Positions 47 to 43,767 of a stretch of 64,000 bases of DNA are shown here, in pieces (within the stretch, counting starts at the first letter, position 1; each line of letters begins with the position of its first letter). The position numbers and the translations under genes are program-made. The notes beneath the pieces are model-generated. The model was not told the origin of the DNA and did not search any database. It saw only the letters and a list, made by a program, of their open reading frames with translations. Location: the NCBI GenBank assembly GCA_001769195.1, contig MEOK01000032.1, positions 62,001-126,000 on the forward strand, read 5' to 3'. The stretch is from Bacteroidetes bacterium GWF2_40_14. Lineage in GTDB: Bacteria > Bacteroidota > Bacteroidia > Bacteroidales > UBA932.

Positions 47-2911
47 ATGAAAAATTTTTATTTTAAAATAATCCTCCCTACTATACTGTCGGTTCTGTTG
101 TTTATTCTTACAATTTTTTTCATAATAATTCCTCGCTTTCAGGAGAATATTATGAATGGCAAGAGAGAGATGATAAAAGAGCTAACCAATTCTGCCTGGA
201 GTATTCTGGCAGAATATGAAGCAGATGAAAAAGAAGGAATTCTTTCCCGGAAAGAGGCTCAGATGACAGCCATGTCAAAAATTCAACACTTGAGATATGG
301 AGAAGAAAATAAAGATTATTTCTGGATAACAGACATGACCCCTACAATGATCATGCATCCCTACCGAAGAGACCTGGATGGTAAGGATTTATCAAATTTT
401 ACTGATCCTCACGGAAAAAGGTTGTTTGTAGAATTTGTAGAGACCGTTAAAAGATCAGAACAGGGATATGTAGATTATATGTGGCAATGGAAGGATGACT
501 CACTTCACATAGTTCCCAAGCTGTCTTATGTTAAAATATTAAAATCCTGGAACTGGGTCATAGGAACCGGTATCTATATTGAAGATGTAAAAAAAGAGAT
601 CTCGGCACTCACAAAAAGGATGCTCTGGATATCAATAAGTATCTCCTTCTTAATTGCTTTTCTTCTTTTATATATTTTTAAACAAAGTCTTAATATAGAA
701 CGCAAAAGAATCAAGGCCGAAAATCAATTACATGAGTCCAAAGAAAGATACCGAACTCTTGTAGAGGCATCAACTGATGGTTTAATAATGCTAATAGACG
801 GGAAAATAAGTTTCTCGAATAATGTTATAAGTCTAATGACCGGTTATGAAAACAACGAACTTGTCAACCTTTCAATCGGAGAGATAATCAGCGAGAACAA
901 TAATAATGATATTATTGAGATTTTTTTAAAAAATTCTGTAATTAAAGAAGGACAGTTTGAATTAAATATTAAAAAGAAAAATGGAGGATTTGTAGAGACT
1001 TTAGTTAAATCATCAACCGCTCTTTTTTCAGGTAAAACCGTCAATATCATAATTGTCAAAAACCTAAGCGTAGACCAAAGCTTGAATTATTCCAATATCG
1101 ATTATCAAAAATTAATCAGCATTTTAAACTTGGGGGTTTTTAAAACAAGTCTTGACTCCAGAGGTAAGTTTATTTATGCCAATGAAAAGGCAATTCGAAT
1201 ATTTGGTTTTGATAATTTCAATGACCTGTCTGAGATGAATTTTTTTAAGTTATTTGTTGACTCCCAGGAAAGAGAAAATATCAGACAACGCCTAAAGACA
1301 GATGGTTATATAAAAAATAAGGTTCTTAAAATCTTTAATAAAAACAAAGACTGTTCAATTGTAGCTCTCACTCTTGTAGCTTTTAACAATGAAAATTCAG
1401 AATACTTTATTTGTGATGGAATAATTGAAGATATTACTTCACAGGAAAATGAAAAAAATGAAACAAGTAATCTCATTGCAGAACTAAAATCAAATGGGTT
1501 TTTAATTGAGCAACCCATTAAAGATTATTTAATTCCTTTTTATTCAGTAGATAATGATTCTACAATAAGCGATTCTATTGAAATATTATCGAAACGAAAA
1601 ACTGACAGTTTATTGCTGACAAAAAATGAAAAGGATTTTATTGGAATTATAACAAACAGTGATATTCAAAAACGAGTGCTATCACTAAAGCTAAGTTTAG
1701 AAAACCCTGTTTTCTTAATTATGAGCTCTCCCATTATTTATTGTAGTGCGGCTACTCCGGTGGGAGATGCAATATCTGTTTGTGACGAAAATAATATAAA
1801 TCATCTGGTTGTAAGAGATGAGACAAACAAAATCATTGGAATATTTAGTACTAAGGAAATTTTTAAAAGCTTAACAAATTCTCTTTCCTTTTTAATTGAC
1901 AAGATAAAAAAATCAGAAACAACAGAAGAGCTTAAGCAATGTTACAAATTGCTTCAATTATTTATAAAACCATTAATTAACAGTGATATCTCCGTTAAGC
2001 ACCTAATTAATCTTACATCCTCTTTTTCAGATTCTGTAATTAAAAGAATAATTGAATTAACCATTAGAGAAATTGGAGAGCCACCTGTAAGTTTCTCCTT
2101 TATATGTCTTGGAAGCGAAGGGAGAAGAGAGGAAAGCTTGTTTACAGATCAGGACAATGCAATAATTTATGAGGATGTTGCAAAAGAAAAAGAAGGTTTA
2201 GTATGTGATTACTTCCGCGTCCTGGGTGAGATGGTGTGCGACTCATTAAACTTTGCAGGTTACTCTTTTTGCAAAGGAAATATTATGGCAAAAAATCCAC
2301 TGTGGAACAAACCACTAAGCACTTGGGAGAAATATTTCACAAACTGGATAATGACTCCTGAGCCTCAAAACCTTTTGGATGCAATAATTTTCTTTGATTT
2401 CAGAAATGTTTATGGAAACGAAGAGTTTGCAGAACATCTTAGAGAAACTGTCAATTCATTAGTTTCGCAACAGTCGGTATTTTTCTATCATCTTGCCACT
2501 AATGCGTCCAACATTAAAACCCAGCAAATATCTTCCAGCCATATAATTACGGACAAAAATGCCGAAATAATTGATTTAAAAAGCAGTATTAATAATATTA
2601 TAATGTTTGCCCGAATATATTCCCTTCAAAATAATATTTGGTGCACAAACACTATTGAACGGTTAAATGCATTAAAATCGAAGCAAATTATTGATGAAAG
2701 CGTTATTGATGAAATTATTTTTGTTTACAATTTTTTAATGCAACTGAGGTTCAAAAATCAGATAATCTTGCTTGGAAACAATACCCCTTTATCAAATTTA
2801 CTGAACACAAAATACCTGATGGAGATTGAAGTATCCATGCTCAAGAAAGTTTTGTCACAAATTCCTGCTTATCAGAACAAAATGAGTCTTGATTTTAGAA
2901 TAAAAACATAG
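47..2911 (+). CDS. Cache-PAS-PAS-CBS-DUF294 membrane signalling protein
   Basis: This 954-residue protein has a TM segment (about 8-30), an extracytoplasmic single-Cache domain (about 35-185), a second TM (about 193-211), two PAS-like regions (about 225-340 and 355-470), a CBS pair (about 490-620), then a nucleotidyltransferase-like DUF294 domain and an all-helical C-terminal domain. The nucleotidyltransferase motif is clear: G689-S-E-G-R-R-E-E and T700-D-Q-D-N-A, as in GlnD-type enzymes. There is no kinase, GGDEF or response-regulator domain. CBS-DUF294 proteins are often encoded beside DUF4212/VC_2705 sodium:solute symporters, and such a pair starts 1 kb downstream, so I infer it senses a ligand outside the cell and controls that transporter. 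Fusion to a Cache-PAS sensor is the odd part; the output reaction is unknown. The start is only 46 bases from the window edge, so the promoter is not assessable. Confidence 0.85.
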   Translation: MKNFYFKIILPTILSVLLFILTIFFIIIPRFQENIMNGKREMIKELTNSAWSILAEYEADEKEGILSRKEAQMTAMSKIQHLRYGEENKDYFWITDMTPTMIMHPYRRDLDGKDLSNFTDPHGKRLFVEFVETVKRSEQGYVDYMWQWKDDSLHIVPKLSYVKILKSWNWVIGTGIYIEDVKKEISALTKRMLWISISISFLIAFLLLYIFKQSLNIERKRIKAENQLHESKERYRTLVEASTDGLIMLIDGKISFSNNVISLMTGYENNELVNLSIGEIISENNNNDIIEIFLKNSVIKEGQFELNIKKKNGGFVETLVKSSTALFSGKTVNIIIVKNLSVDQSLNYSNIDYQKLISILNLGVFKTSLDSRGKFIYANEKAIRIFGFDNFNDLSEMNFFKLFVDSQERENIRQRLKTDGYIKNKVLKIFNKNKDCSIVALTLVAFNNENSEYFICDGIIEDITSQENEKNETSNLIAELKSNGFLIEQPIKDYLIPFYSVDNDSTISDSIEILSKRKTDSLLLTKNEKDFIGIITNSDIQKRVLSLKLSLENPVFLIMSSPIIYCSAATPVGDAISVCDENNINHLVVRDETNKIIGIFSTKEIFKSLTNSLSFLIDKIKKSETTEELKQCYKLLQLFIKPLINSDISVKHLINLTSSFSDSVIKRIIELTIREIGEPPVSFSFICLGSEGRREESLFTDQDNAIIYEDVAKEKEGLVCDYFRVLGEMVCDSLNFAGYSFCKGNIMAKNPLWNKPLSTWEKYFTNWIMTPEPQNLLDAIIFFDFRNVYGNEEFAEHLRETVNSLVSQQSVFFYHLATNASNIKTQQISSSHIITDKNAEIIDLKSSINNIIMFARIYSLQNNIWCTNTIERLNALKSKQIIDESVIDEIIFVYNFLMQLRFKNQIILLGNNTPLSNLLNTKYLMEIEVSMLKKVLSQIPAYQNKMSLDFRIKT

Positions 2912-2922
2912 GAGACAAATAA

Positions 2923-3678
2923 TCAAACCGAGAAATAGGCATTATGTTTAAAGTTCTTATGTTCATTACTATGAACATATCCAAGCTGATTAGTAAGCAA
3001 AATGGTATTTCCAATATATAATGGTTTCTGATTAAAATGGCTGTGACCGTAAATCCAGAAATTGGCATTACAACCCCTTATATATTCTGTCAAATCCACG
3101 CAAAAGGCTTCATTTAGAGGACTGTTATTGTGTAACGGAGAATTACATAAACCTGACGGGAGGTGATGTGTCACTACAACAGTATTGCCTTTTTTATTCA
3201 TTAATGAGTGCTTCATGAAGGTTAAACTATCGTGATGCAATTTATTGAAATCTGTTGCTTTTAACTTTCTGTTTTTGTTGGTAATACAGTCAAAATCCAT
3301 TACACACTGCTCAATTTTCTTTTCATTATCATTTCCAATTTTAGACCATAAAGTTGTAAAAACGAATTGAATGTTTTCGTATTTCAGCTCTATGTTGTTC
3401 ACAATATTAAAATTTTCTCTTAACTGAATATTATATGACTTGCTGAAATCGTCGATGTCCTTATGATAAAATTCGTGATTGCCCGGAATCCAGAATACTT
3501 GTTTGTAATTATCCGTAACAAAACTAAAAAAGGAGTTATTTAAAAACTCATCGTGCAATGGTACAATGTCTCCGGCTAAAATTAAAATTTCGCCACTAAC
3601 CTTAAGTGGTTTATTTAATAAATATTTATTGTTGTGTTCAAATTCAAGGTGCAAATCTGAACAATATTGAATTCTCAT
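2923..3678 (-). CDS. metallophosphoesterase (calcineurin-like)
   Basis: The 251-residue protein begins with the calcineurin-like phosphoesterase signature: SDLHLE near residue 7, LAGDIVPL near 34, GNHEFY near 66, THHLP near 170 and GHSH near 212. These supply the dimetal-binding Asp, His and Asn residues. No signal peptide is visible, so it is probably cytoplasmic. The substrate cannot be read from sequence; relatives cleave phosphomonoesters, phosphodiesters or cyclic nucleotides. It lies tail-to-tail with the Cache-CBS-DUF294 gene (11 bases apart) and diverges from the symporter operon, so it may belong functionally to neither. Confidence 0.85.
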   Translation of the reverse strand: MRIQYCSDLHLEFEHNNKYLLNKPLKVSGEILILAGDIVPLHDEFLNNSFFSFVTDNYKQVFWIPGNHEFYHKDIDDFSKSYNIQLRENFNIVNNIELKYENIQFVFTTLWSKIGNDNEKKIEQCVMDFDCITNKNRKLKATDFNKLHHDSLTFMKHSLMNKKGNTVVVTHHLPSGLCNSPLHNNSPLNEAFCVDLTEYIRGCNANFWIYGHSHFNQKPLYIGNTILLTNQLGYVHSNEHKNFKHNAYFSV

Positions 3679-3833
3679 AGTCTGTCCAAAAGATGATGTT
3701 AAATGGGTTATAAATATACTGCAAATTACTTAACTGACCGAATTTTGTATTTAGCGGCTATATAATACAGAACCGCTGATAATTATGTATACTATTAAAA
3801 TTAACATAACTTTACTGCAAATGTTTTATTTCA

Positions 3834-3863
3834 TTTGCAATTTTATTTTTATTAATATCTTTG
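3834..3863 (+). promoter_or_regulatory. Bacteroidota-type promoter of the symporter operon
   Basis: A TTTG box at 3834-3837 and TATCTTTG (matching TAnnTTTG) at 3856-3863 are 18 bases apart, near the usual Bacteroidota spacing. The start codon at 3905 follows, with an unusually good AGGAG-like site at 3895-3899. Confidence 0.6.
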
Positions 3864-3904
3864 GTACAATGAATAAAAAAAATTAACTAACAAAAGGAGC
3901 ATAT

Positions 3905-4177
3905 ATGTTACATAAACCGGCAACAAACACTGGAACTGACAAAGCAGCAGCGAAGAAAGCAAAATTAGGTGTAAAAATGTTTTTTGTGTACACTTTAGTT
4001 TATTCTGGCTTTGTACTTATTGGTTTAACCAAACCCGAAATAATGGGATTGGAATTAATCGGCGGACAAAACATTGCTATTATCTATGGTTTTGGTTTGA
4101 TAGTACTGGCAATAATTATGGGATTCGTCTATAATTATTTCTGTACACGAATGGAAAACAAAATGAATAAAAACTGA
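3905..4177 (+). CDS. DUF4212 protein, small subunit of sodium:solute symporter
   Basis: A 90-residue protein with two predicted membrane helices (about 25-47 and 58-80) and a charged, Lys-rich N-terminus. Length, topology and position immediately before a VC_2705-type symporter match the DUF4212 family, annotated as small subunits of solute:sodium symporters. It is cotranscribed with the large subunit, with 16 bases between the genes. Its promoter and ribosome-binding site are the clearest in this region. Role in assembly or activity of the transporter is inferred from family context. Confidence 0.85.
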   Translation: MLHKPATNTGTDKAAAKKAKLGVKMFFVYTLVYSGFVLIGLTKPEIMGLELIGGQNIAIIYGFGLIVLAIIMGFVYNYFCTRMENKMNKN

Positions 4178-11427: not shown

Positions 11428-12468
11428 TCAACAGCAGTTCATGCTGCAGTTTGTACAATGGCCAAACTCCCCCCGAAGTCTTGCCTCAACCAGATCCAGA
11501 AGTCTCTGACGGAGTTCTTCGTTGTATATTTTCTCCAGAACTGCATATACAAAGGCAAGCTGCTGAAGAATCTTTGCCTCCTCTGCACCAATGCCTCTTG
11601 ATCGCATATAAAAGAGTGCCATTTCATCCAACCGGCCACTTGTGGCACCATGAGAACACTTAACATCGTCTGCATAAATTTCAAGCTGAGGTTGTGCATA
11701 CACTTTTGCCTTTCTCGACAGCAACAGGTTATGGTTAGCCTGATATGCCTCCGTTTTCTGGGCATCCTGAGAGACTTTTATCTTTCCAAAAAAGAGCGCC
11801 TTTGACTCATCGTCAAGTATTCCTTTGAACAACTGACGACTGGTGCATCTGGGAACAAGATGGTGCATATTCACCGTTGTATGAATCTCCTGAGTTCCAT
11901 CTACAAGATAAATACCATTAAGTTCGCATGTTGCCCCCTCTCCTGTGAGTCTTGCCTCTATCTCATTCTCAAGCATTCCCCCGTGCAGAGAGACAATATT
12001 GATGCGTATATATGAGTCTTTGGCAAGGTTGACATTAAACCTGACCTTATGCAAAGATCTGTTGTGTTCGTTTTGCATTACCACAATATTTACCCTCGCC
12101 CCCTCATAAACATTGATATTCATCTCAGAATCTGTCTTAAATTCGTCCATTGAGAGTGTGTGGGAACATAAAAGTATATTAGACTCAGACATGGCCCCAA
12201 ACGACAGGTTGTTCGTATAACTGATTGGCTCCGTATTTTCCGAATCCCTCACAGTTATTATTTGCAAACTGTCCGGTAAAATTGTCCCCTTGGTCACATT
12301 CAGGTTAAAACCCAGTGGGCTGCCCGCTTCAATCTTTAAAAGAGAATCTTCTCCCTCCTCCTCTCTGAGCTTTCCGTTCATAAGAAAGGCCTGACGTGTC
12401 CCATGCAGAGGGACCCTGCATCGGAAAACCTCCGGAATTTCAGGAGAATATGTGTATTTTTCTGCCAT
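11428..12468 (-). CDS. sufD: Fe-S cluster assembly protein SufD
   Basis: SufD (346 residues) is the partner of SufB in the SufBC2D scaffold that builds Fe-S clusters. The C-terminal half has the characteristic CSHGATSGRLDEMALFYMRSRGI segment, including the conserved His used for cluster assembly in the family. The N-terminal part is shorter and divergent, as usual for Bacteroidota SufD. It starts 2 bases after sufC and ends the operon. A Cys-rich end (HCTNCSMNCC) is an unusual addition that could bind metal; I have not seen this noted and treat it as inference. No sufS or sufE follows. Confidence 0.93.
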   Translation of the reverse strand: MAEKYTYSPEIPEVFRCRVPLHGTRQAFLMNGKLREEEGEDSLLKIEAGSPLGFNLNVTKGTILPDSLQIITVRDSENTEPISYTNNLSFGAMSESNILLCSHTLSMDEFKTDSEMNINVYEGARVNIVVMQNEHNRSLHKVRFNVNLAKDSYIRINIVSLHGGMLENEIEARLTGEGATCELNGIYLVDGTQEIHTTVNMHHLVPRCTSRQLFKGILDDESKALFFGKIKVSQDAQKTEAYQANHNLLLSRKAKVYAQPQLEIYADDVKCSHGATSGRLDEMALFYMRSRGIGAEEAKILQQLAFVYAVLEKIYNEELRQRLLDLVEARLRGEFGHCTNCSMNCC

Positions 12469-12470
12469 GT

Positions 12471-13214
12471 CTATGGGTTTATCAGCCAGTCGTAACCCCT
12501 GCTCTCAACCTCAAGAGCCAGCTCCTTACCGGCAGTTTTTATTATCCTTCCATCGTAAAGTATATGCACGATATCGGGAACAATGTAGTCCAGAAGTCTC
12601 TGGTAGTGTGTGATTATAATAAAGGCATTATCCGGTTTTTTAAGCTTGTTAACTCCTGCGGCAACTATTCTAAGCGCGTCAATGTCTAGTCCGCTGTCAG
12701 TCTCGTCTAGTATTGCCAGCTTAGGTTCCAGCATGGCCATCTGAAAAATCTCGTTCCTTTTCTTCTCTCCTCCGGAAAATCCTACGTTCACACCTCTGCT
12801 TGAGAATGATTTATCCATTTCAACAACCTCCATCTTCTCCCTCATAAGCTTCAGAAATTCTGCGGCTGTGAGCGGCGGCAGGTTCATATGTTTCCTCTTC
12901 TCGTTAATGGCAGTCTTCATAAAGTTGACATTGCTGACACCGGGTATCTCTACCGGATACTGAAACCCCAGGAAAATACCGTTTCTTGCCCTGTCTTCGG
13001 GAGAGAGTTTCAAAAGATCGAACCCTTCATACATAACCTCACCCGCAGTAACATCAAAGTGGTCCCTTCCTGCCAGAACAGCAGATAGTGTGCTTTTACC
13101 GGAACCGTTGGGCCCCATTATGGCATGAATCTCTCCTGCTTTTACCGAGAAATCAATCCCTTTAAGTATCTCCTTTCCCTCGATTGAGGCGTGCAAGCCT
13201 TTTATCTCTAACAT
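12471..13214 (-). CDS. sufC: Fe-S cluster assembly ATPase SufC
   Basis: SufC (247 residues) is the ABC-type ATPase of the SufBC2D complex. Walker A is GPNGSGKST near residue 34, the signature is FSGGEKKRNEIFQ near 146, and Walker B with the SufC-specific ending is LAILDETDSGLDID near 168. The H-loop His follows in IIITHYQR. There is no membrane domain in the operon, as expected for this soluble ATPase. It is followed 2 bases later by sufD and preceded by pnuC, from which it is separated by 20 bases. Confidence 0.96.
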   Translation of the reverse strand: MLEIKGLHASIEGKEILKGIDFSVKAGEIHAIMGPNGSGKSTLSAVLAGRDHFDVTAGEVMYEGFDLLKLSPEDRARNGIFLGFQYPVEIPGVSNVNFMKTAINEKRKHMNLPPLTAAEFLKLMREKMEVVEMDKSFSSRGVNVGFSGGEKKRNEIFQMAMLEPKLAILDETDSGLDIDALRIVAAGVNKLKKPDNAFIIITHYQRLLDYIVPDIVHILYDGRIIKTAGKELALEVESRGYDWLINP

Positions 13215-13234
13215 ATTATAATATTATTTCAATT

Positions 13235-13888
13235 TTAATTATTCAACTTCCACTGTTTTTTCCACATGGAAAAACCAAAAAATGCCAGCACCAGGTAAGC
13301 AGCACTTACAATTGGCATAAATACAAGACCTGCCAGCATGTATAAACTAATATTGGTTATGTTTACTGTAAACCACGCGGCCCAACACTCAAGTTTCTTC
13401 TGGGCAGAGAGATACTGTGCCGTCAATATAGTTATTGTAATAAATGCATCCAGATAAGGAGTCCTTGCCTCTTTGAAAATGTCCGGCCAAATGTTGTCCA
13501 GATATGTGAGAGCAGTGCCCCATATTACCGCCAGAACAATTATCTGAGCAACAAAATACACCCTTTTACCGTTTGTCATGAGCGATATCTTAAGTTGATG
13601 CTGGCTGTTCTCCTCCTCCTTTTTAGGGTGGGTCCAACGATAGTGTCCAAAGAAATTGATTGCAAAAGAGACAGGCTGCACAAGCATGCTCGAATATAGT
13701 CCTTTCTGATAAAAGAGAATAAACAGGATTATATTATATGCATATCCTATCCAGAAGTTTGCAACCTTGGCCCTTGTTGCCAGATATACACATGATAATC
13801 CGCTAAGTACCGCTATTATCTCAATAAGGCTGACCCCCTGTCCGCCAATAGAAAAAAGAATATTTTTTATACTGAAAATGTAATCCAT
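13235..13888 (-). CDS. pnuC: nicotinamide riboside/mononucleotide transporter PnuC
   Basis: A 217-residue inner membrane protein with about seven hydrophobic helices. Two internal repeats typical of PnuC are visible: the FGHYRWTHP segment near residue 80 (family YGWYxW) and LAFFGFSMWKKQWK at the C-terminus. PnuC imports nicotinamide riboside for NAD synthesis. Its position is odd: it interrupts the suf operon between sufB and sufC with gaps of only 13 and 20 bases, so it is almost certainly cotranscribed with Fe-S assembly genes. No thiamine or NAD riboswitch is recognisable. A different vitamin-type substrate (PnuT/PnuX-like) cannot be excluded. Confidence 0.85.
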   Translation of the reverse strand: MDYIFSIKNILFSIGGQGVSLIEIIAVLSGLSCVYLATRAKVANFWIGYAYNIILFILFYQKGLYSSMLVQPVSFAINFFGHYRWTHPKKEEENSQHQLKISLMTNGKRVYFVAQIIVLAVIWGTALTYLDNIWPDIFKEARTPYLDAFITITILTAQYLSAQKKLECWAAWFTVNITNISLYMLAGLVFMPIVSAAYLVLAFFGFSMWKKQWKLNN

Positions 13889-13901
13889 CTTTTAAACATT
13901 T

Positions 13902-15338
13902 TTAACCAACACTACCCTCAAGCGTTATCTGAAGCAACTTCTGAGCCTCAACAGCAAACTCCATCGGGAGCTGATTGAGAACCTCCTTTGCATATCCATT
14001 TACTATAAGACCAACTGCATCTTCTGTTCCGATGCCCCTCTGCTGGCAGTAGAATAGCTGATCTTCACTTATTTTTGATGTAGTTGCCTCATGTTCCAGA
14101 ATAGCGGTCTCGTTTTCGTTCTCAATATAAGGAAAGGTGTGTGCACCACATTTGTCGCCAAGCAAAAGAGAGTCACATTGAGTGTAGTTCCTCGAAAATT
14201 CTGCATTTGGAAGTATTTTTACAAGACCCCTGTAACTGTTCTGGCTATGTCCGGCTGAGATACCCTTGCTGACTATCCTGCTTTTTGTGTTTTTGCCTAT
14301 GTGTATCATTTTTGTTCCGGTATCTGCCTGCTGATAGTTGTTTGTAACAGCAACAGAGTAAAACTCCGATATTGAGTTGTCGCCCCTTAGTATTGTACTC
14401 GGATACTTCCAGGTAATTGCAGAGCCTGTCTCTACCTGTGCCCAGAACAACTTGCTGTTTTCGCCCTTGCAGATGCCCCTTTTTGTTACAAAGTTGAATA
14501 TCCCCCCTTTGCCGTTTACATCTCCCGGATACCAGTTCTGGACAGTTGAATACTTCACCTCGGCATCCTTCATTACAATAATCTCAACAACTGCTGCGTG
14601 CAGCTGGTTCTCGTCACGCTGCGGTGCTGTACACCCTTCCAGATAACTAACATAAGATCCCTCCTCTGCTACAATAAGCGTTCTCTCAAACTGGCCTGTT
14701 CCCTTTGCGTTTATCCTGAAATAGCTCGACAGCTCCATAGGGCAGCGTACACCCTTAGGTATATAACAGAAAGATCCGTCACTGAACACTGCCGAATTCA
14801 ATGCTGCATAGAAGTTGTCGCCATAAGGGACAACAGATGCAAGATGCTTTTTGACAAGTTCCGGATAGTCCCTCACAGCCTCAGAGAAAGAGCAGAAAAT
14901 TATCCCTTTCTCGGCAAGTGACTCTCTGAATGTAGTCTTTACAGAAACCGAATCGAAAACAGCGTCCACTGCTACACCTGCCAGTACGTTCCTCTCGTCC
15001 AGGGGAATCCCGAGTTTATCAAAGGTAGCCTGAAGTTCAGGATCAATTCCTGACCCCTCTGCTCTTTTCTTTGGTGCGGCAAAATAAATTATATTCTGAT
15101 AATCTATCTCCGGAATAGTAAGATGTGGCCATGTTGGCATCTTCATGGTGAGCCATTTGTTATATGCCTTTAACCTGAATTCCAGCATCCATTCCGGCTC
15201 CTCTTTTTTGGCCGAAATCATTCTTACTGTATTTTCATTCAATCCTTTCGGAAAAAACTCCTGGTCGAGTTCTGTTACAAAGCCGTGTTCATAATCGGAC
15301 TCTGTTATTTTTTGAATTATATCATTTTCACTCATCAT
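13902..15338 (-). CDS. sufB: Fe-S cluster assembly scaffold SufB
   Basis: SufB (478 residues) accepts sulfur and builds the nascent cluster with SufC and SufD. Conserved segments include [12 protein letters not shown] near residue 48, [36 protein letters not shown] in the middle, and the C-terminal [39 protein letters not shown] with the conserved Cys. It is first in the operon sufB-pnuC-sufC-sufD. The start may be at 15338 or at the next codon (Met-Met). A TAACTTTG promoter box lies only 4 bases before the ATG, so the mRNA may be leaderless. Confidence 0.96.
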
Positions 15339-37630: not shown

Positions 37631-38047
37631 TTAAACGATCAGTTTATCAAGTGTGGTATTCGCCAATTTATTATAAGTGTACTCCCTTATGTCTTTAAAT
37701 GTCCCTCTTATTGAACAGGTTGCCTCATCTTTACAGTGCTCACAAGGTTGATAGAACTTTTCTGAAGTGCATTTTAACATGGCAATGCTGCCTTCAAAAA
37801 TTCTTACTATCTCCAACAGGCTGATTTTTTCCGGACTTTTCAACAGATAGTACCCACCCTTCTTCCCGAGCTTGCTTGCAAGATAGCCTTGTTTCTTGAG
37901 TTCAAGAAGTATTGATTCCAGAAAACGCTTTGGTATTCTCTCGCTTTCTGCTATCTCGCTTATCATTAAAGTACCCTTACCATACTCTCTTGCGAGTCTG
38001 GTCAAGGCTAACATTGAATATCTTGTTTTTTGTGTAAGCATGGTCAT
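37631..38047 (-). CDS. Rrf2 family transcriptional regulator with Cys cluster
   Basis: A 138-residue Rrf2 protein. The N-terminal winged helix (YSMLALTRLAREYGKGTLMISEIAESERIPKRFLESILLELKKQGYLASKLGKKGGYYL) is typical, and four Cys at 93, 102, 105 and 111 lie in the region where IscR, RsrR and NsrR bind an Fe-S cluster. It therefore probably senses cluster status, nitric oxide or oxygen. Its start overlaps the crp/fnr-like stop by ATGA, which suggests translational coupling. It lies in a two-regulator operon divergent from the ABC-GTPase-nifS-FeS operon, the obvious target. Confidence 0.9.
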   Translation of the reverse strand: MTMLTQKTRYSMLALTRLAREYGKGTLMISEIAESERIPKRFLESILLELKKQGYLASKLGKKGGYYLLKSPEKISLLEIVRIFEGSIAMLKCTSEKFYQPCEHCKDEATCSIRGTFKDIREYTYNKLANTTLDKLIV

Positions 38048-38733
38048 CCTATTTTACTGATAAATTTTAACTTTTCGCTATCAATTATCTTAATCATCTT
38101 CTTATCCAAAGAGATTATCTCTTCATTTTGCCACTTTGACAGAGTCATAATTACGTTTTCCACGGAACATCCGGCATATTCTGCCAGTTCTTTTCTTGTT
38201 AAGGATACCTGAAATGAGTAGCCGTGATAAACCTCTTTTGCAAGGTAGAGAATTATATCCGCAACCCTTCCCTCCTTTTGTTTGTATGCAAGGCTTATAA
38301 AATTCAGAATTGATTGTTTAAACATTTCTGATGCTATCTGGAACATAACCATAGCATACCTGGAATTATCCATCAGAACAGATTCCAATATTTTACTGTC
38401 AATTAGAATTATATCACAATCCTCAAGTGCCACTATAGAAAAAAGGTTGTTGTCCTTATAAAAAAGGTTTGCTCCTCCAAGTATTTTAGGCGCTGCCACA
38501 ACCGTAAGAATTAGGTTTTTACCAGTTTCGTTTTCATAATTGAACTTGACAATTCCGTTTTCAAGACATGCAATATTTGTAGGGTGGCTCCCCTGCTTAA
38601 GAATGGTTTCTCCTTTTTTAAACTGCAATCTTACAGATGTCCTGTCGATTTTATCGAACTCTTTCTCAGTGATAAATTGTAATGAAATTCTCTTTAACTG
38701 AGAATACTCGTTAGTGAAGTTTGAATTTTTCAT
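38044..38733 (-). CDS. Crp/Fnr family transcriptional regulator
   Basis: A 229-residue regulator with an N-terminal cyclic-nucleotide-binding-like domain (KKGETILKQGSHPTNIACLENGIVKF and LGGANLFYKDNNLFSIVALEDCDIILID) and a C-terminal helix-turn-helix (SLTRKELAEYAGCSVENVIMTLSKWQNEEII). The N-terminus lacks the Cys cluster of true Fnr, so direct [4Fe-4S] oxygen sensing is unlikely; effector unknown. It is coupled to the downstream rrf2 gene. The two regulators probably act on the divergent operon that starts 139 bases away. Confidence 0.9.
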   Translation of the reverse strand: MKNSNFTNEYSQLKRISLQFITEKEFDKIDRTSVRLQFKKGETILKQGSHPTNIACLENGIVKFNYENETGKNLILTVVAAPKILGGANLFYKDNNLFSIVALEDCDIILIDSKILESVLMDNSRYAMVMFQIASEMFKQSILNFISLAYKQKEGRVADIILYLAKEVYHGYSFQVSLTRKELAEYAGCSVENVIMTLSKWQNEEIISLDKKMIKIIDSEKLKFISKIG

Positions 38734-38808
38734 AGAGTGATGGATAAACCTATTTTAATACACTATTTTTTATTGAATATTAAATGGAAATGGCTTTAAA
38801 CAACAATA

Positions 38809-38816
38809 CAAATATA
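38809..38816 (-). promoter_or_regulatory. -7 box of the crp/fnr-rrf2 operon
   Basis: TATATTTG on the minus strand matches TAnnTTTG, about 75 bases before the start codon. An identical box serves the divergent operon 25 bases away. Confidence 0.55.
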
Positions 38817-38840
38817 CATCATCCCGATAGACTTTATAGA

Positions 38841-38848
38841 TATATTTG
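38841..38848 (+). promoter_or_regulatory. -7 box of the ABC-GTPase-nifS-FeS operon
   Basis: TATATTTG on the plus strand matches TAnnTTTG and gives a leader of about 20 bases before the GTG at 38873. There is no clear -33 box, as expected if an activator is needed. Confidence 0.55.
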
Positions 38849-38872
38849 TAGACAATTATTAAAAAATTTATT

Positions 38873-39667
38873 GTGGATATTCAGAAAATAACTGTAAAAG
38901 GAGGCCTTGGGAAAGATGGACGAAAAGAGAACGTAGAATCTTTTGACCTTAAAATAGGAGACATTGTAAGTATAGTTGGACCTACAGGGTGTGGTAAAAC
39001 AACCCTTATCAATGACATAGAGTTGTTTGCCAATCAGAACACTCCATCAGGACGGCAAATACTAATAAATGATGAGGTTATTCCTGAGGATTTCTCTTTC
39101 GATCCCTCAAAACACCCTATCGCCCTCATCTCCCAACATACAAATTTTTTAAGCGATTTGCCTGTAGGCGAATTCCTTACAATTCATGCAACGGTTCGTG
39201 GTGCAGAAGATATTGAGAATGTTGTCTCAGAGACTATAAGTTTTGCCAACAAGCTTACAGGAGAAGCAATAATAAAAGAGACTGCAATGACAGAATTATC
39301 TGGAGGGCAGACCCGTTCACTCTTAATTGCCGATGCTGTAATTATTGGAAACTCTCCCATTATCCTGCTGGACGAGATTGAGAATGCCGGTATAAATAAA
39401 ACTAAGGCGATTGAACTTCTCAAAGGATACAACAAAATATTTGTTTTTGTTACGCACGATCCTACAATTGCTCTTTTTTCCGACTTCAGAATAATCATGA
39501 AGAACGGAGCCATGCAAAAATTGATTCAATCTAACGAGGGAGAGAGAGCTACAGCAGACAAGCTTAAGACCATGGATAACATAATTTTGTACTACCGCGG
39601 ATTAATCCGGGCCGGTGAAGAGATAAATATAAACAAGCTGGATGAACTATCATTATTATTAAAATAA
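38873..39667 (+). CDS. soluble ABC-type ATPase of putative metallocofactor operon
   Basis: A 264-residue stand-alone ABC ATPase starting with GTG. Walker A is G36-P-T-G-C-G-K42-T-T, the signature LSGGQ is at 142-146, Walker B is IILLDE with D167-E168, followed by IENAG where transporters usually have PTSGLD. The H-loop His is H195. No membrane partner is encoded in the operon, so a transport role is unlikely; SufC is a precedent for a soluble ABC ATPase in cluster assembly. The N-terminal sequence (MDIQKITVKGGLGKDGRKE) is unlike SufC. The gene ends 6 bases before the GTPase gene. I know of no assigned function. Confidence 0.85.
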   Translation: MDIQKITVKGGLGKDGRKENVESFDLKIGDIVSIVGPTGCGKTTLINDIELFANQNTPSGRQILINDEVIPEDFSFDPSKHPIALISQHTNFLSDLPVGEFLTIHATVRGAEDIENVVSETISFANKLTGEAIIKETAMTELSGGQTRSLLIADAVIIGNSPIILLDEIENAGINKTKAIELLKGYNKIFVFVTHDPTIALFSDFRIIMKNGAMQKLIQSNEGERATADKLKTMDNIILYYRGLIRAGEEININKLDELSLLLK

Positions 39668-39673
39668 ACCATC

Positions 39674-40381
39674 ATGAATATGAAATTAATTGTATTTGCC
39701 GGCCCTCCTACTTGTGGAAAAACAACTGTTATCCGGCAGGTTATAAAAAGAATGATTGCTAAAGGATTAAAAACTTCATATATAAAAATAGATGTCCTTT
39801 ATGCGGATGAAGATCAAGCAATAAAAAAAGAGTTCGGTATTCCTGTAAAGAAAATATATTCCGGCGAACTTTGTCCCGACCATTGCAACGTGGTAGTTCT
39901 TGACGAGGCAGTAGAGTGGGCAGAAAGGGTTGGCTCAAATTTTCTTTTTGTTGAGACTGCTGGATTGTGTCTGCGTTGTTCTCCCTACGTAGAAAACTCT
40001 TTGGGAGTGGCTGTGCTTGAAGCAACAAGTGGTATGAATCTGCCCAGAAAGATTGGTCCGATGCTTACACTGGCAGACATCTGTGTTATAACAAAAATTG
40101 ACCTTATATCTCAGGCAGAAAGGGAGGTATTCAGATATAGGGTACTGGAATCGGCAAATGAGATATCGATAGTTGAGAGTAATGCTCTTTATGGAATCGG
40201 GATTGACCCTATTATTAAAAAAATTATAAACACATCCGAAATAGAGTTTCCCATGTATCTCCGCGGAAATCCTCCTGTTGGCACATGTACAATCTGTGCC
40301 GGAAAAAAAGAGATTGGATCCAAACACCATTTTGGTGTGTTGAGAACTATGGAGCAAGAGCTATTTTACGTAGGTGAGTAA
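39674..40381 (+). CDS. HypB/UreG-like P-loop GTPase with Cys/His metal-site candidates
   Basis: A 235-residue protein of the HypB/UreG/CobW (SIMIBI) type. Walker A is G10-P-P-T-C-G-K16-T-T, the switch region is VETAGLCLRC, and the guanine-specificity motif is ITKIDLIS. Relatives insert nickel or other metals into enzymes. Several Cys motifs are conserved-looking: CPDHC near 68-72, CLRC near 100, and C205-x2-C208 followed by H218-H219 at the C-terminus. It is not HypB or UreG proper, because no hydrogenase or urease genes are near and it lacks their His-rich tails. The start may be Met1 or Met3. It lies 8 bases before nifS in a tight operon. Confidence 0.82.
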   Translation: MNMKLIVFAGPPTCGKTTVIRQVIKRMIAKGLKTSYIKIDVLYADEDQAIKKEFGIPVKKIYSGELCPDHCNVVVLDEAVEWAERVGSNFLFVETAGLCLRCSPYVENSLGVAVLEATSGMNLPRKIGPMLTLADICVITKIDLISQAEREVFRYRVLESANEISIVESNALYGIGIDPIIKKIINTSEIEFPMYLRGNPPVGTCTICAGKKEIGSKHHFGVLRTMEQELFYVGE

Positions 40382-40389
40382 TTATTGTT

Positions 40390-41550
40390 ATGGAAAGAGT
40401 ATACCTGGATTATGCGGCAACTACCCCTGTAGACGACAGAGTGTCAGAAATTATCTCTCAATATAATAATGACATCTTTGGAAATCCCTCCAGTCTCCAT
40501 TCTTTTGGAACAGAAGCAAAGGATGTTGTAACAAACTCCAGGGCAATTATTGCAAATTATATTGGTGCTAAGCCCGAGGAGGTATGCTTTACATCCGGAG
40601 GAACCGAGTCAAACAATTTTGCTATAAAAGGGATAGCTTATTCCAGGAAAAATCAGGGGAACCATATTATTGTATCTTCAATCGAACATGATTGTATTCT
40701 GAACAGTTGCAAATGGCTTGAATCACAGGGATTCGAGATAACACTTCTTCCCGTTGATAGTAAGGGTACCCTCGATCGGGAAATTCTTATGGATGCGATC
40801 AGACAAAATACCATTCTAGTCTCTGTGATGTCTGCAAATAATGAAATCGGCACTCTGGAACCTATTGATGACATAGGAAGAATCTGTCAAGAAAAGGGAG
40901 TTTTGTTTCATTGTGATGCCTGCCAAAGTTTCGGCAAGCTTCCATTAAATGTAGAAAAATCCAATATTGACCTGCTAACTATAAACTCTCATAAAATATA
41001 CGGCCCTAAAGGAGTCGGTGCCCTCTATATCAGAAAAGGGGTGACAATCACGCCTCTGCTACATGGTGGCGGACAGGAGAGCGGACTCAGATCAACTACA
41101 GAAAACATTCCTGGTATTGCAGGTTTTGCAAAGGCAGCAGAAATATGTCATACTGAAATGGAGTCAGAATTTTCCAGGCTAACAGCCTTAAGGAAAAAAT
41201 TATCCGATTTTCTTATCCATAATTTCGATGGGGCGTATATAAATGGAGATGAGCTCAACAGGCTTCCCTGTCATCTTAGCTTCTGCTTAGGCGGCCTGGA
41301 AGGAGAAACAATAAGATTGCTCTTTCTCCTTGATGAAATGGGTTTTGCTGTCTCTGCAGGATCGGCGTGTTCGTCCAATCACTCCAATGGCTCTTCTCAT
41401 GTACTTAGGGCCATCGGGTTGGATCAGTTTCAGGCAAGAGGGGGCATCAGAGTTACCTTTGGCCGTTTTACTACTGAGGCTGATCTTTTGCTATTTATGG
41501 ATTCCTTAAAAATTGCAACAAAAAAATTAAATAACATTTTCTCTAATTAA
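40390..41550 (+). CDS. cysteine desulfurase, NifS/IscS-like
   Basis: A 386-residue PLP enzyme that removes sulfur from cysteine to give a persulfide. It begins MERVYLDYAATTPVD, has PLP Lys202 in SHKIYGPKGVGALY, and a catalytic Cys327 in the short loop SAGSACSS typical of group I NifS/IscS desulfurases, not the SufS type. The gene is third of four in the operon. No IscU, NifU or IscA gene is next to it; the Cys-rich protein encoded 8 bases downstream may take that place. It may or may not serve the suf genes at 11-15 kb, which lack sufS here. Confidence 0.92.
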   Translation: MERVYLDYAATTPVDDRVSEIISQYNNDIFGNPSSLHSFGTEAKDVVTNSRAIIANYIGAKPEEVCFTSGGTESNNFAIKGIAYSRKNQGNHIIVSSIEHDCILNSCKWLESQGFEITLLPVDSKGTLDREILMDAIRQNTILVSVMSANNEIGTLEPIDDIGRICQEKGVLFHCDACQSFGKLPLNVEKSNIDLLTINSHKIYGPKGVGALYIRKGVTITPLLHGGGQESGLRSTTENIPGIAGFAKAAEICHTEMESEFSRLTALRKKLSDFLIHNFDGAYINGDELNRLPCHLSFCLGGLEGETIRLLFLLDEMGFAVSAGSACSSNHSNGSSHVLRAIGLDQFQARGGIRVTFGRFTTEADLLLFMDSLKIATKKLNNIFSN

Positions 41551-41558
41551 CATTAAAT

Positions 41559-42239
41559 ATGATACCAGAAAAAAATCAAATCATACTTCCAAATTTAAAT
41601 TGTGGAGCATGCGGCTACAAATCATGCAATGACTTTGAAAGAGCTATCATGGATGGAAAGGCAGAAATAGCTAAGTGCATCCACATAACAGAGAAGAAGA
41701 AACCCGATTTTACCACAGCGAAACCATGTTCAAGTTGTGTCGGAGACGAAAACTTAGGCGAAAAACTCGAGTGGAAAGATAGCTTGAAAAGAGAATTTGA
41801 CTTTATTCTTGATATAATTGATGGTGAACCAGGTCCAAAAGAGACAATTCTTCCTTATAACCCGGCTCTTGTTAAAGATTTGGATATTAAGAAAGGTGAC
41901 GTTATGATAGGCAGACCAATGGGTATGTCTTGTGGCTGTCCTGTAACACATTGTGGTGTAGTATATGATGTAGATGCCCGTAATGGTGTTATCTACTGGA
42001 ATGTAACCGGACCACTAAGACCCAGGGCCGAGGGATTTAAAGATATTGGATTTTATGTTTCACAAGCGTATGAAGGAATAATCAGAGAGACTCGAGAAGA
42101 GATAAAATTGGGACGTCGCTACTGGTTTCTACCTCACCGATGCATGCTGCAATGGCGCCACAGCGGACTTGTAAATGCTGTAACAAAAATGAGAGACGGC
42201 TCCTACAAAGTAAGAATAGAGGGACTGTATATTGGGTAG
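41559..42239 (+). CDS. Cys-rich Fe-S binding protein
   Basis: A 226-residue protein. The N-terminus has the Fe-S domain motif C15-x2-C18-x4-C23-x16-C40, as in corrinoid Fe-S proteins and RnfB. C57-x2-C60 follows, and the central part has C125-x-C127-x4-C132 within GMSCGCPVTHCGVVYDVD. The C-terminal half is not one I recognise; it has a short conserved-looking RRYWFLPHRCMLQWRHSGLVN. It is the last gene in the operon with the ABC ATPase, GTPase and desulfurase. It may be the scaffold, an electron carrier, or the substrate of the module. It is not a ferredoxin, because the spacing and length differ. Confidence 0.75.
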   Translation: MIPEKNQIILPNLNCGACGYKSCNDFERAIMDGKAEIAKCIHITEKKKPDFTTAKPCSSCVGDENLGEKLEWKDSLKREFDFILDIIDGEPGPKETILPYNPALVKDLDIKKGDVMIGRPMGMSCGCPVTHCGVVYDVDARNGVIYWNVTGPLRPRAEGFKDIGFYVSQAYEGIIRETREEIKLGRRYWFLPHRCMLQWRHSGLVNAVTKMRDGSYKVRIEGLYIG

Positions 42240-42281: not shown

Positions 42282-42317
42282 ATGAAATATTTTGTAAGGG
42301 CAACCCCTCATTTGCAA

Positions 42318-42397
42318 ATTAGCACATTAGCATATTAGCACATTAGCATATTAGCACATTAGCACATTAGCATATTAGCACATTAACCCATTAACCC
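42318..42397. repeat. 8-bp tandem repeat ATTAGCAY overlapping tnaA stop
   Basis: Eight perfect tandem copies of ATTAGCAC/ATTAGCAT fill 42318-42381, followed by two copies of ATTAACCC to 42397. The last unit contains the tnaA stop codon (42391-42393, minus strand). Confidence 0.95.
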
Positions 42398-43767
42398 GGT
42401 CCCAGTTCCACAGTAAAGTGCCTCATTATAGGAAGCTCCTTCAGTATAACATATCCCTTTGTGATTGACTCTCTGCGGTCATAAACATTTTTAATTGCGG
42501 CTGCAACATAGTCCATGTGATTGTTTGTGTACACCCTGCGTGGTATTGCCAGTCGAAGGAGTTCAAGTTCCGGATAGCGGTTTTCTCTGGTTTCAGGGTC
42601 ACGGTCGGCAAGCAGACAACCAATTTCCACTCCTCTTATGCCAGCCTCAAGATATAGTTCTATGCCCAGTGTCTGTGCTATAAGTTGCTCCTTTGGAACA
42701 TGTGTCAGAATTTTTTTTGCGTCAAGAAAAATTGCATGTCCCCCGGCAGGTCTCTGATAAGGAATTCCGTACTCATCTAGTTTTTTGCCTAGATATGCTA
42801 TCTGGTTTATGCGGGTTTCAAGGTATTCGAAGTCCGTACCTTCTCTGAGTCCCTGAGCAAGAGCGTTCATGTCTCTGCCCGACATACCGCCATATGTGAT
42901 AAATCCCTCAAACATAATATTGTACATCTGACACTTTTGCCAATCTTCCTCATTACGGAAAGCAAGGAAACCACCCATGTTTACAATTGCATCCTTCTTA
43001 GAAGACATTGTCATAAAGTCGCCATAGCTGAACATCTCTAAGGCAATCTCCCTGATACTCTTGTCGGCATAACCCTCCTCTCTTGTTTTGATGAAGTATG
43101 CATTTTCTGCAAAACGAGCCGAATCGAACAGTATTTTTACTCCATATTTTTTTGCCAGTGCAGAGACGCCTTTAACATTTGCCATAGAAACAGGTTGGCC
43201 TCCGGCAGTATTGTTGGTAATAGTAACCACAATGCAAGGGATTTTCTCCTTCGGATATTTTTTAAGCACCTCTTCCAGCTTGTTAAGGTCCATATTACCT
43301 TTAAACGGAAGTTCTATGGTTGTGTCCTTTGCCTCTTCTATGGTGCAATCAATAGCATGGGCCTTGCGGAACTCTATGTGCCCCTTGGTTGTGTCGAAGT
43401 GTGAATTCCCCGGAACCATGTCGTCTGCCTTTATAATAGCAGAAAAAAGCACGTTTTCAGCTGCCCTCCCCTGATGAGTAGGAAGAAAATATGGGAAACC
43501 CGTAATATCCTTAATGCTCTCCTTTAAATTATAGTACGACCTCGCCCCTGCATAACTCTCATCGCCCTCCATCATAGCTGCCCACTGTTTGTCACTCATG
43601 GCACCTGTGCCTGAATCTGTAAGAAGATCGATAAATACATAGTCACTTTTTAGGTTGAACAGATTGTACTTTGCCTCTTTCATCCACTTTTCTCTCTCTT
43701 CTCTTGTACTCTTTTTTATGGTCTCTACCATTTTAATTTTAAAGGATTCTGCAAAAGGAAGTTTCAT
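42391..43767 (-). CDS. tnaA: tryptophanase
   Basis: A 458-residue PLP beta-eliminating lyase that splits tryptophan to indole, pyruvate and ammonia. The family lines up along its whole length: DLLTDSGTGAMSDKQWAAMM, THQGRAAEN, NNTAGGQPVSMAN, PLP Lys258 in MSSKKDA, and LRLAIPRRVYTNNHMD. I chose tryptophanase over tyrosine phenol-lyase because the active-site segment reads GVEIGCLLADRDP, like TnaA, and lacks the Arg of the MERG segment of tyrosine phenol-lyase. There is no tnaC leader peptide: the promoter box is 27 bases upstream. The stop codon lies within a tandem repeat. Confidence 0.92.
   Translation of the reverse strand: MKLPFAESFKIKMVETIKKSTREEREKWMKEAKYNLFNLKSDYVFIDLLTDSGTGAMSDKQWAAMMEGDESYAGARSYYNLKESIKDITGFPYFLPTHQGRAAENVLFSAIIKADDMVPGNSHFDTTKGHIEFRKAHAIDCTIEEAKDTTIELPFKGNMDLNKLEEVLKKYPKEKIPCIVVTITNNTAGGQPVSMANVKGVSALAKKYGVKILFDSARFAENAYFIKTREEGYADKSIREIALEMFSYGDFMTMSSKKDAIVNMGGFLAFRNEEDWQKCQMYNIMFEGFITYGGMSGRDMNALAQGLREGTDFEYLETRINQIAYLGKKLDEYGIPYQRPAGGHAIFLDAKKILTHVPKEQLIAQTLGIELYLEAGIRGVEIGCLLADRDPETRENRYPELELLRLAIPRRVYTNNHMDYVAAAIKNVYDRRESITKGYVILKELPIMRHFTVELGPG

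Follow-up and report, generated by a model that had tools for sequence, protein, structure and literature searches.

A conserved ABC ATPase, HypB/UreG-class GTPase and Fe-S protein module as a candidate cofactor-assembly system in Bacteroidetes bacterium GWF2_40_14

Results

A conserved module with an optional NifS gene

A 64,000-nucleotide stretch of DNA from the anaerobic Bacteroidetes bacterium GWF2_40_14 (contig MEOK01000032.1, positions 62,001 to 126,000), referred to hereafter as the window, carries an operon for a soluble ABC ATPase, a GTPase of the HypB/UreG class, a NifS/IscS-type cysteine desulfurase and an iron-sulfur (Fe-S) protein. Relatives of this operon were collected and compared. 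The genes form a conserved module that is very probably served by a metal-binding GTPase and is often found beside genes of sulfur metabolism. We consider it an even chance that the module is a nucleotide-driven, self-contained cytoplasmic machine that assembles or delivers an Fe-S or metal centre and is linked to sulfur supply.

A scan of 84,980 species genomes gave at least 548 related stretches; the counts below rest on the best 80, in which gene presence was scored by tblastn, and locus numbers (L0xx, L1xx) denote the DNA stretches of the relatives. Of the 80 relatives, 79 have the ABC gene, 72 the Fe-S gene and 45 NifS. Gene order was as in the window in 79, the exception being L094, where NifS follows the Fe-S gene. 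Because order is kept so widely, linkage of the module is far beyond chance. The first-pass annotation of this DNA, made from the sequence alone, had proposed to test whether the four genes co-occur as a set; they do so in conserved order, with NifS as an optional member. Given its presence in only 45 relatives, NifS is dispensable, and the core of the module is the ABC ATPase, the GTPase and the Fe-S protein.

Seven of the eight loci without the Fe-S gene stop at a contig end at most 0.5 kb from the module, while L037 continues for 1.6 kb past the module and still lacks the gene. The sole locus without ABC, L040, begins within the GTPase gene. Across the window and 79 loci, 41 of the 80 comparisons show the ABC stop overlapping the GTPase start; frame-broken ABC genes may underlie a few of these overlaps. 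Pairwise distances between the genes rise jointly, with correlations that include species history (r = 0.79 for GTPase and Fe-S protein, 0.84 for NifS and Fe-S protein, 0.68 for ABC and GTPase, 0.52 for ABC and Fe-S protein).

The module spans more than a dozen phyla, including Bacteroidota, Chloroflexota, Acidobacteriota and Pseudomonadota, and also occurs in one assembly that bears an archaeal name. Among the 80 records, two come from cultured strains, Rhodoblastus sphagnicola and Thioalkalivibrio denitrificans. A quick tree of the GTPase, with 37 of its 90 forks unresolved, mixes phyla and scatters Omnitrophota, Acidobacteriota and Pseudomonadota over several positions each, a pattern that horizontal transfer would produce. 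The distribution is patchy, since the family GTPase was found in 23 of 247 genomes of the host's order (E 1e-30) and in one of 47 genomes of the order of Thioalkalivibrio denitrificans. The latter is T. denitrificans itself, and no trait was linked with its GTPase. Five loci of the order set duplicate members of the 80 (L016 = L041, L109 = L027, L110 = L037, L111 = L029 and L112 = L030). A search of plasmids gave six records, of which only one was a good relative: L101, an entry from Fusobacterium vincentii that lacks gene annotation. This record (NZ_CP084075.1) is named a plasmid, but its length of 2.1 Mb, with one annotated feature, suggests a mislabelled chromosome.

The GTPase is very probably metal-binding

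The GTPase scored far below the cut-offs of the NCBIfam models for HypB (TIGR00073, 49.4 bits against 121.2) and UreG (TIGR00101, 32.3 bits against 204.2), and exceeded no equivalog cut-off among the best 25 of 32 models. In profile alignments covering 19 sequences from three variants of the module (described below), the Cys and His of its CPDH motif coincide with the Cys-His pair of HypB. Against UreG, the match is between the Cys-Pro of both proteins, with the UreG His one residue off. The motif ETAGLCxRC aligns with the HypB segment ENVGN..C, where the second Cys of CxRC and the HypB Cys are offset by one residue. The residues C, P, D, H, C, R and C of the two motifs are invariant in the 19 sequences. 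The aligned segments beside the GTPase switch hold the metal ligands of HypB and UreG, and the module GTPase has Cys and His in the corresponding segments. Its AlphaFold2 model (pLDDT 90) was compared with the Protein Data Bank (PDB) by Foldseek; the six best matches were UreG or HypB chains, some of them from structures determined with nickel or zinc. From the alignment of Cys and His and from the structural matches, we predict that the window protein is very probably a metal-binding GTPase, in keeping with the HypB/UreG-like assignment of the first-pass annotation.

Walker A, signature, Walker B and H-loop motifs were identified by eye in the alignment of the ABC protein, which exceeded no NCBIfam equivalog cut-off among the best 25 of 163 models. 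No permease gene adjoins the ABC gene in the window. Neighbouring genes of the relatives were tallied by Pfam for 140 of 218 candidate open reading frames (ORFs) from 59 loci, leaving out 10 near-duplicate loci and filtering G+C-rich loci by codon-position G+C; among the best 25 of 200 families there was no strongly recurring permease.

The Fe-S protein has a conserved C-terminal part

The N-terminal domain of the Fe-S protein matches PF04060 over residues 10-41 and, in a profile search, a corrinoid/iron-sulfur protein chain (E 1e-6). Beyond PF04060 no domain exceeded a cut-off in Pfam or in any of the 14 NCBIfam models, and neither collection recognised a catalytic family. Over the whole protein, identity to the window is 39-60% for most sequences outside the close Bacteroidota. 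Invariant residues in 58 aligned sequences include C15, C18, C23, C40, E95, R119, C127, H131, C195 and H201, and conserved strings include GCPxTH and CMLQWRHSG. The AlphaFold2 model (mean pLDDT 88.8, pTM 0.70) is beta-rich in its C-terminal part. A Foldseek search of this model against the PDB gave no match at E ≤0.001, the best (E 0.049) being unusable; for the modelled C-terminal part this is compatible with an unsolved fold.

The desulfurase scored 453.9 bits with the NifS model TIGR03402, below the cut-off of 530.75, and passed the broader IscS-subfamily model NF002806 (325.6 against 304). It exceeded no equivalog cut-off among the best 25 of 35 models.

Two variants share the ATPase and GTPase

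The arrangement of the window is referred to as type A. Type B (L017, L018, L107 and L108) has a GTPase and a divergent Fe-S protein, about 30% identical to that of the window in L017 and L018, together with an ABC gene where the contig reaches; that of L018 stops short of any ABC gene. No adjoining NifS was detected at these four loci. In type F (the F. vincentii record L101 and L102-L107), the GTPase and ABC genes are kept and a periplasmic-type binding protein, which adjoins them in six of seven loci, takes the place of the Fe-S protein. The one binding protein that was scanned, from L101, is SBP_bac_6 with an N-terminal DUF1858, and a Pro-Cys pair is invariant in five aligned type F binding proteins. 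Types B and F form separate starred groups in the GTPase tree, and L107 holds both, about 3 kb apart. Type F adjoins a FecCD gene in L102 and a Peripla_BP_2 gene in L105, and in L101 lies near genes that resemble a metal ABC importer by eye.

The binding proteins of L101 (10823-12001), L103 (9632-10867) and L107 (13458-14693) have no obvious signal peptide by eye and are possibly cytosolic. The type F ABC ATPases of L103 (7757-8773) and L107 (11289-12305) carry an N-terminal extension of about 90 residues, DUF1858-like by eye, that is absent from type A.

Sulfur genes recur beside the module

The strongest genomic context of the module is genes of cysteine, homocysteine and sulfate activation. 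At least one of seven such families was found in 18 of the 80 loci, and within 3 kb of the module in 14; there were 43 matches in total, 27 of them within 3 kb. The queries were derived from the module loci themselves, a bias in favour of these loci. Identical queries gave no match in 59 control stretches (757 kb), also at E 1e-8. By Fisher's test, the difference between 27 matches in 391 kb near the module and none in 757 kb of control DNA has p = 1e-13, in a count where neighbouring genes are non-independent and near relatives (L098/L099, L079/L082) are all included; that between 14 of 80 loci and none of 59 control stretches has p = 3e-4. The control stretches were beginnings of contigs from 22 module-bearing genomes, rather than random draws, and one of them (L144) ends in a type B module, without a sulfur match.

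At individual type A loci, CysK lies within the operon of L040, CysE-CysK-ThiF follows the module in L023 (CysK over the cut-off, CysE below) and CysK-CysE lies near it in L090 (CysE over the cut-off). MetY was found in L026, L030 (over the cut-off) and L071, and MetY or MetX in Omnitrophota loci. CysC-CysD-CysN, with CysN over the cut-off, follows the module in L044; since these genes stand among ORFs that look polysaccharide-related by eye, they may serve sulfation. A taurine/sulfonate-type binding protein (below the cut-off) and an NtaA/DmoA-type monooxygenase (over it) lie within 8 kb of the module in L070 (Azospirillaceae).

Candidate client enzymes

Several metalloenzymes and pathways were considered as clients. 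A HydE gene over the NCBIfam cut-off sits between the NifS and Fe-S genes of L034 and L039, and another follows the Fe-S gene of L040; at L017 a HydG gene, likewise over its cut-off, lies at a distance of 1.7 kb from type B. The genomes of L034 and L039 each have two HydE copies over the cut-off. The in-operon copies (L034 11910-13022, L039 11889-13001) are possible paralogues with a new role. An obligatory link with HydEFG was rejected: of 41 module genomes, 18 had HydF and 18 had HydE over the cut-offs, the two sets differing by one genome, and in the host HydE was not found at E 1e-40 and no HydF exceeded the cut-off (HydG was not searched genome-wide).

The hybrid cluster protein Hcp is enriched, in 17 of 23 genomes with the module against 92 of 224 without it (p = 0.0035). 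As it was not found in six of the 23, it is not a required client. In L107 a hybrid cluster protein gene (2517-4169), adjoined by an Rrf2 gene, is separated from the type B module by two genes.

Nitrogenase-like subunits (PF00148) were found in 11 of 49 module genomes against 3 of 31 others. A nitrogenase-like client such as methylthio-alkane reductase was rejected on this count and because PF00148 gave no match in the host at E 1e-15. The lack of NIR_SIR in 27 of 41 module genomes had suggested a substitute for siroheme sulfite reductase. Its base rate is equally low: in the host's order it was found in 2 of 23 genomes with the module and 14 of 224 without (16 of 247 in all), so the module does not simply replace this enzyme. 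Sulfate activation was likewise set aside as a partner: 19 of the 23 genomes with the module have CysD, as do 147 of the 224 without it (p = 0.11). Neither NIR_SIR nor CysD was found in the host at the thresholds used.

The operon and its regulators

The positions of the module genes and of the host SUF genes are listed in Table 1; the host assembly has a size of 3.36 Mb and a completeness of 97.5%. The coordinates and strands were re-read and bear out the tight packing described in the first-pass annotation, with six bases between the ABC gene (39667) and the GTPase gene (39674) and eight each between GTPase and NifS and between NifS and the Fe-S gene. The span given there (38044-42239) places the genes correctly but leaves out most of the Rrf2 gene, which extends to 37631.

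Table 1. Coordinates in the window of the module, its divergent regulators and the host SUF operon.
Feature	Position	Strand	Evidence or remark
Rrf2-family regulator	37631..38047	-	Pfam Rrf2 9e-35; Cys at 93, 102, 105, 111
Crp/Fnr-family regulator, divergent	38044..38733	-	Pfam Crp domains
Divergent intergenic region, presumed promoter-bearing	38734..38872	.	139 bases
Soluble ABC ATPase, 264 aa, GTG start	38873..39667	+	Pfam ABC_tran 5e-16
HypB/UreG-class GTPase, 235 aa; CPDH, ETAGLCLRC, C-terminal CTIC...H motifs	39674..40381	+	Pfam cobW 2.6e-12
NifS/IscS-type cysteine desulfurase, 386 aa, optional member	40390..41550	+	Pfam Aminotran_5 6e-76
Fe-S protein, 226 aa	41559..42239	+	PF04060 FeS 6e-13 and conserved beta-rich C-terminal part
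SufD (SufBD-core)	11428-12468	-	host SUF operon
SufC (by eye)	12471-13214	-	host SUF operon
Membrane protein, PnuC-like by eye, between SufC and SufB	13235-13888	-	host SUF operon
SufB (SufBD-core)	13902-15338	-	host SUF operon

The divergent Crp/Fnr and Cys-bearing Rrf2 regulators of the first-pass annotation were both recovered by Pfam. Their genes share four overlapping bases on the minus strand, and between the Crp start and the GTG start of the ABC gene there are 139 bases. A+T-rich inverted repeats were the sole feature seen in this intergenic region, for which no regulatory motif common to several loci was demonstrated. Crp/Fnr homologues adjoin the module in many Bacteroidota loci, and Rrf2 genes do so in 30 of the 80 loci, as read from the neighbour listing. 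The pattern C-x8-C-x2-C-x5-C is present in 18 of 18 Rrf2 matches from Bacteroidota loci (of which that of L031 is far from the module and those of L112 and L030 are identical DNA) and in 20 of 44 matches overall. Rrf2 matches upstream of the module outside Bacteroidota mostly lack it; two kinds of Rrf2 gene, differing by phylum, thus flank the module.

Directly after the Fe-S gene, the window has a tandem array of the 8-base unit CATTAGCA (10.6 copies, 42309-42393). A beta-eliminating lyase gene (Pfam Beta_elim_lyase; of tryptophanase or tyrosine phenol-lyase type by eye) lies at 42391-43767 on the minus strand, convergent with the module.

Discussion

Interpretation of the module

If the module assembles or delivers an Fe-S or metal centre, sulfur would be supplied by NifS or, where NifS is absent, by a housekeeping desulfurase. 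The Fe-S protein would be the scaffold or carrier, its N-terminal domain binding a [4Fe-4S] cluster and perhaps a second metal or cluster lying near C127, H131, C195 and H201. A dimer of the ABC ATPase may act on this protein, as SufC does on SufB/D, driving assembly or release, and the GTPase, with Cys and His beside its switch, may load or gate the metal. The product would be delivered to a client used when the supply of cysteine or other sulfur needs adjusting, and the Rrf2 and Crp/Fnr proteins may sense Fe-S, redox or cysteine status.

Several observations weigh against this reading. No tested partner co-occurs strictly with the module (HydF 18 of 41, HydE 18 of 41, Hcp 17 of 23), and no metalloenzyme among those tested had the matching profile that the first-pass annotation had proposed to look for. 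The role given to the ABC ATPase is drawn by analogy, and the precedent of HypB and UreG is one of nickel, not of Fe-S. Moreover, 62 of the 80 loci, many of them on short contigs, carry none of the seven sulfur genes, and clustering within 1 kb among the loci that do is not significant (p = 0.058). Lastly, the C-terminal part of the Fe-S protein has no confident fold match, and the protein could therefore be an enzyme rather than a scaffold.

The chief rival builds on this last point. The Fe-S protein would be an enzyme of sulfur metabolism, acting for example in sulfide release or thiol handling, and the ABC ATPase and GTPase would be its activators or metal loaders. Its enzyme-like conservation (including GCPxTH and CMLQWRHSG) fits such a role, as do the Cys genes at L040, L023, L090 and L044, the TauE matches among 2 of the 140 neighbour ORFs (by eye, L059 and L065) and a cysteine-dioxygenase-like gene in L031. 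Yet no known catalytic family was recognised in the protein by Pfam or NCBIfam, the module does not simply replace siroheme sulfite reductase, and the host gave no match to CysD or NIR_SIR; we regard this explanation as unlikely. A stress or repair system, acting on Fe-S or hybrid clusters that nitric oxide or oxygen has damaged, would account for the Rrf2 and Crp/Fnr regulators, for the Hcp gene near type B in L107 and the enrichment of Hcp, and for DUF1858 in type F, a domain linked to hybrid cluster proteins. It would leave the sulfur context unexplained, and the enrichment of Hcp, which six module genomes appear to lack, may reflect lifestyle and phylogeny. Such a system is quite improbable.

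Accessory maturation of the H-cluster of [FeFe]-hydrogenase, or of another organometallic iron centre, is suggested by the HydE genes within or next to the operon of L034, L039 and L040, by the second HydE copy in the genomes of the first two and by HydG near type B in L017. The data already contradict it as a general function: the host gave no HydE, and in 23 of the 41 module genomes no HydF exceeded the cut-off. We therefore consider it very improbable. The ABC ATPase might instead energise an importer encoded elsewhere, with the GTPase storing metal, as the FecCD and Peripla_BP_2 neighbours of type F (L102, L105) and its use of a binding protein as third partner in six of seven loci might hint. 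No permease gene stands beside the window module or recurs strongly among the best 25 of 200 families, and the ABC protein passed no equivalog cut-off among the best 25 of 163 models; a part in metal uptake thus seems the remotest of these explanations.

Assembly or delivery of a centre under a link to sulfur supply remains the reading we prefer, and the interpretation made in the first-pass annotation is partly supported. The dispensability of NifS, the binding-protein variant and the sulfur-gene context are additions to it. We also propose, tentatively and at somewhat under an even chance, that the module is a further, horizontally spread cofactor machine, distinct from SUF, ISC, NIF, HYP and URE. 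In it, an ABC ATPase and a HypB-class GTPase would jointly drive a new two-domain Fe-S protein, making a novel centre that connects metal supply with sulfur assimilation; in type F, this ATPase-GTPase pair would serve again, with the cytosolic-looking binding protein. An order conserved across phyla, combined with the lack of a dedicated family model among the models listed, points to a gap among catalogued cofactor-assembly systems. If a new centre is indeed made or inserted, many species may contain a metalloenzyme that has gone unrecognised.

Comparison with known systems

A text search of open-licence papers found no description of such a gene set, which may be described elsewhere. The statement in the first-pass annotation that the combination is not Suf, Isc, Nif, Hyp or Ure agrees with our comparisons. 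With the corrinoid/iron-sulfur protein and RnfB, the Fe-S protein has in common the N-terminal four-Cys PF04060 domain, but no corrinoid or Rnf domain was found in it by Pfam, and its C-terminal part has no confident PDB match. The module shares a NifS/IscS-type desulfurase with the NIF and ISC systems, and no NifU/IscU scaffold domain was found by Pfam in the six proteins of the operon and its regulators.

Like the module, SUF has a soluble ABC ATPase without a permease, beside a desulfurase and a Cys-rich protein. It differs in the pairing of SufC with SufB and SufD, which the module lacks; the two SufBD-core genes of the host lie elsewhere (11428-15338). Between the module ABC protein and the host SufC, an assignment made by eye, the alignment (30 bits) is largely confined to 22 residues. 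The host also has nine Aminotran_5 matches, the module NifS included. With its SUF operon it has Fe-S machinery besides the module, and this points to a dedicated client of the module.

HypB and UreG (PF02492) share with the module GTPase the fold, the GTP motifs and the Cys and His in metal-ligand segments. The module protein scores far below both equivalog cut-offs and has an additional C-terminal CxxC...H region. The partners of HypB and UreG are HypA or UreEFD; those of the module GTPase, in contrast, are an ABC ATPase and an Fe-S protein.

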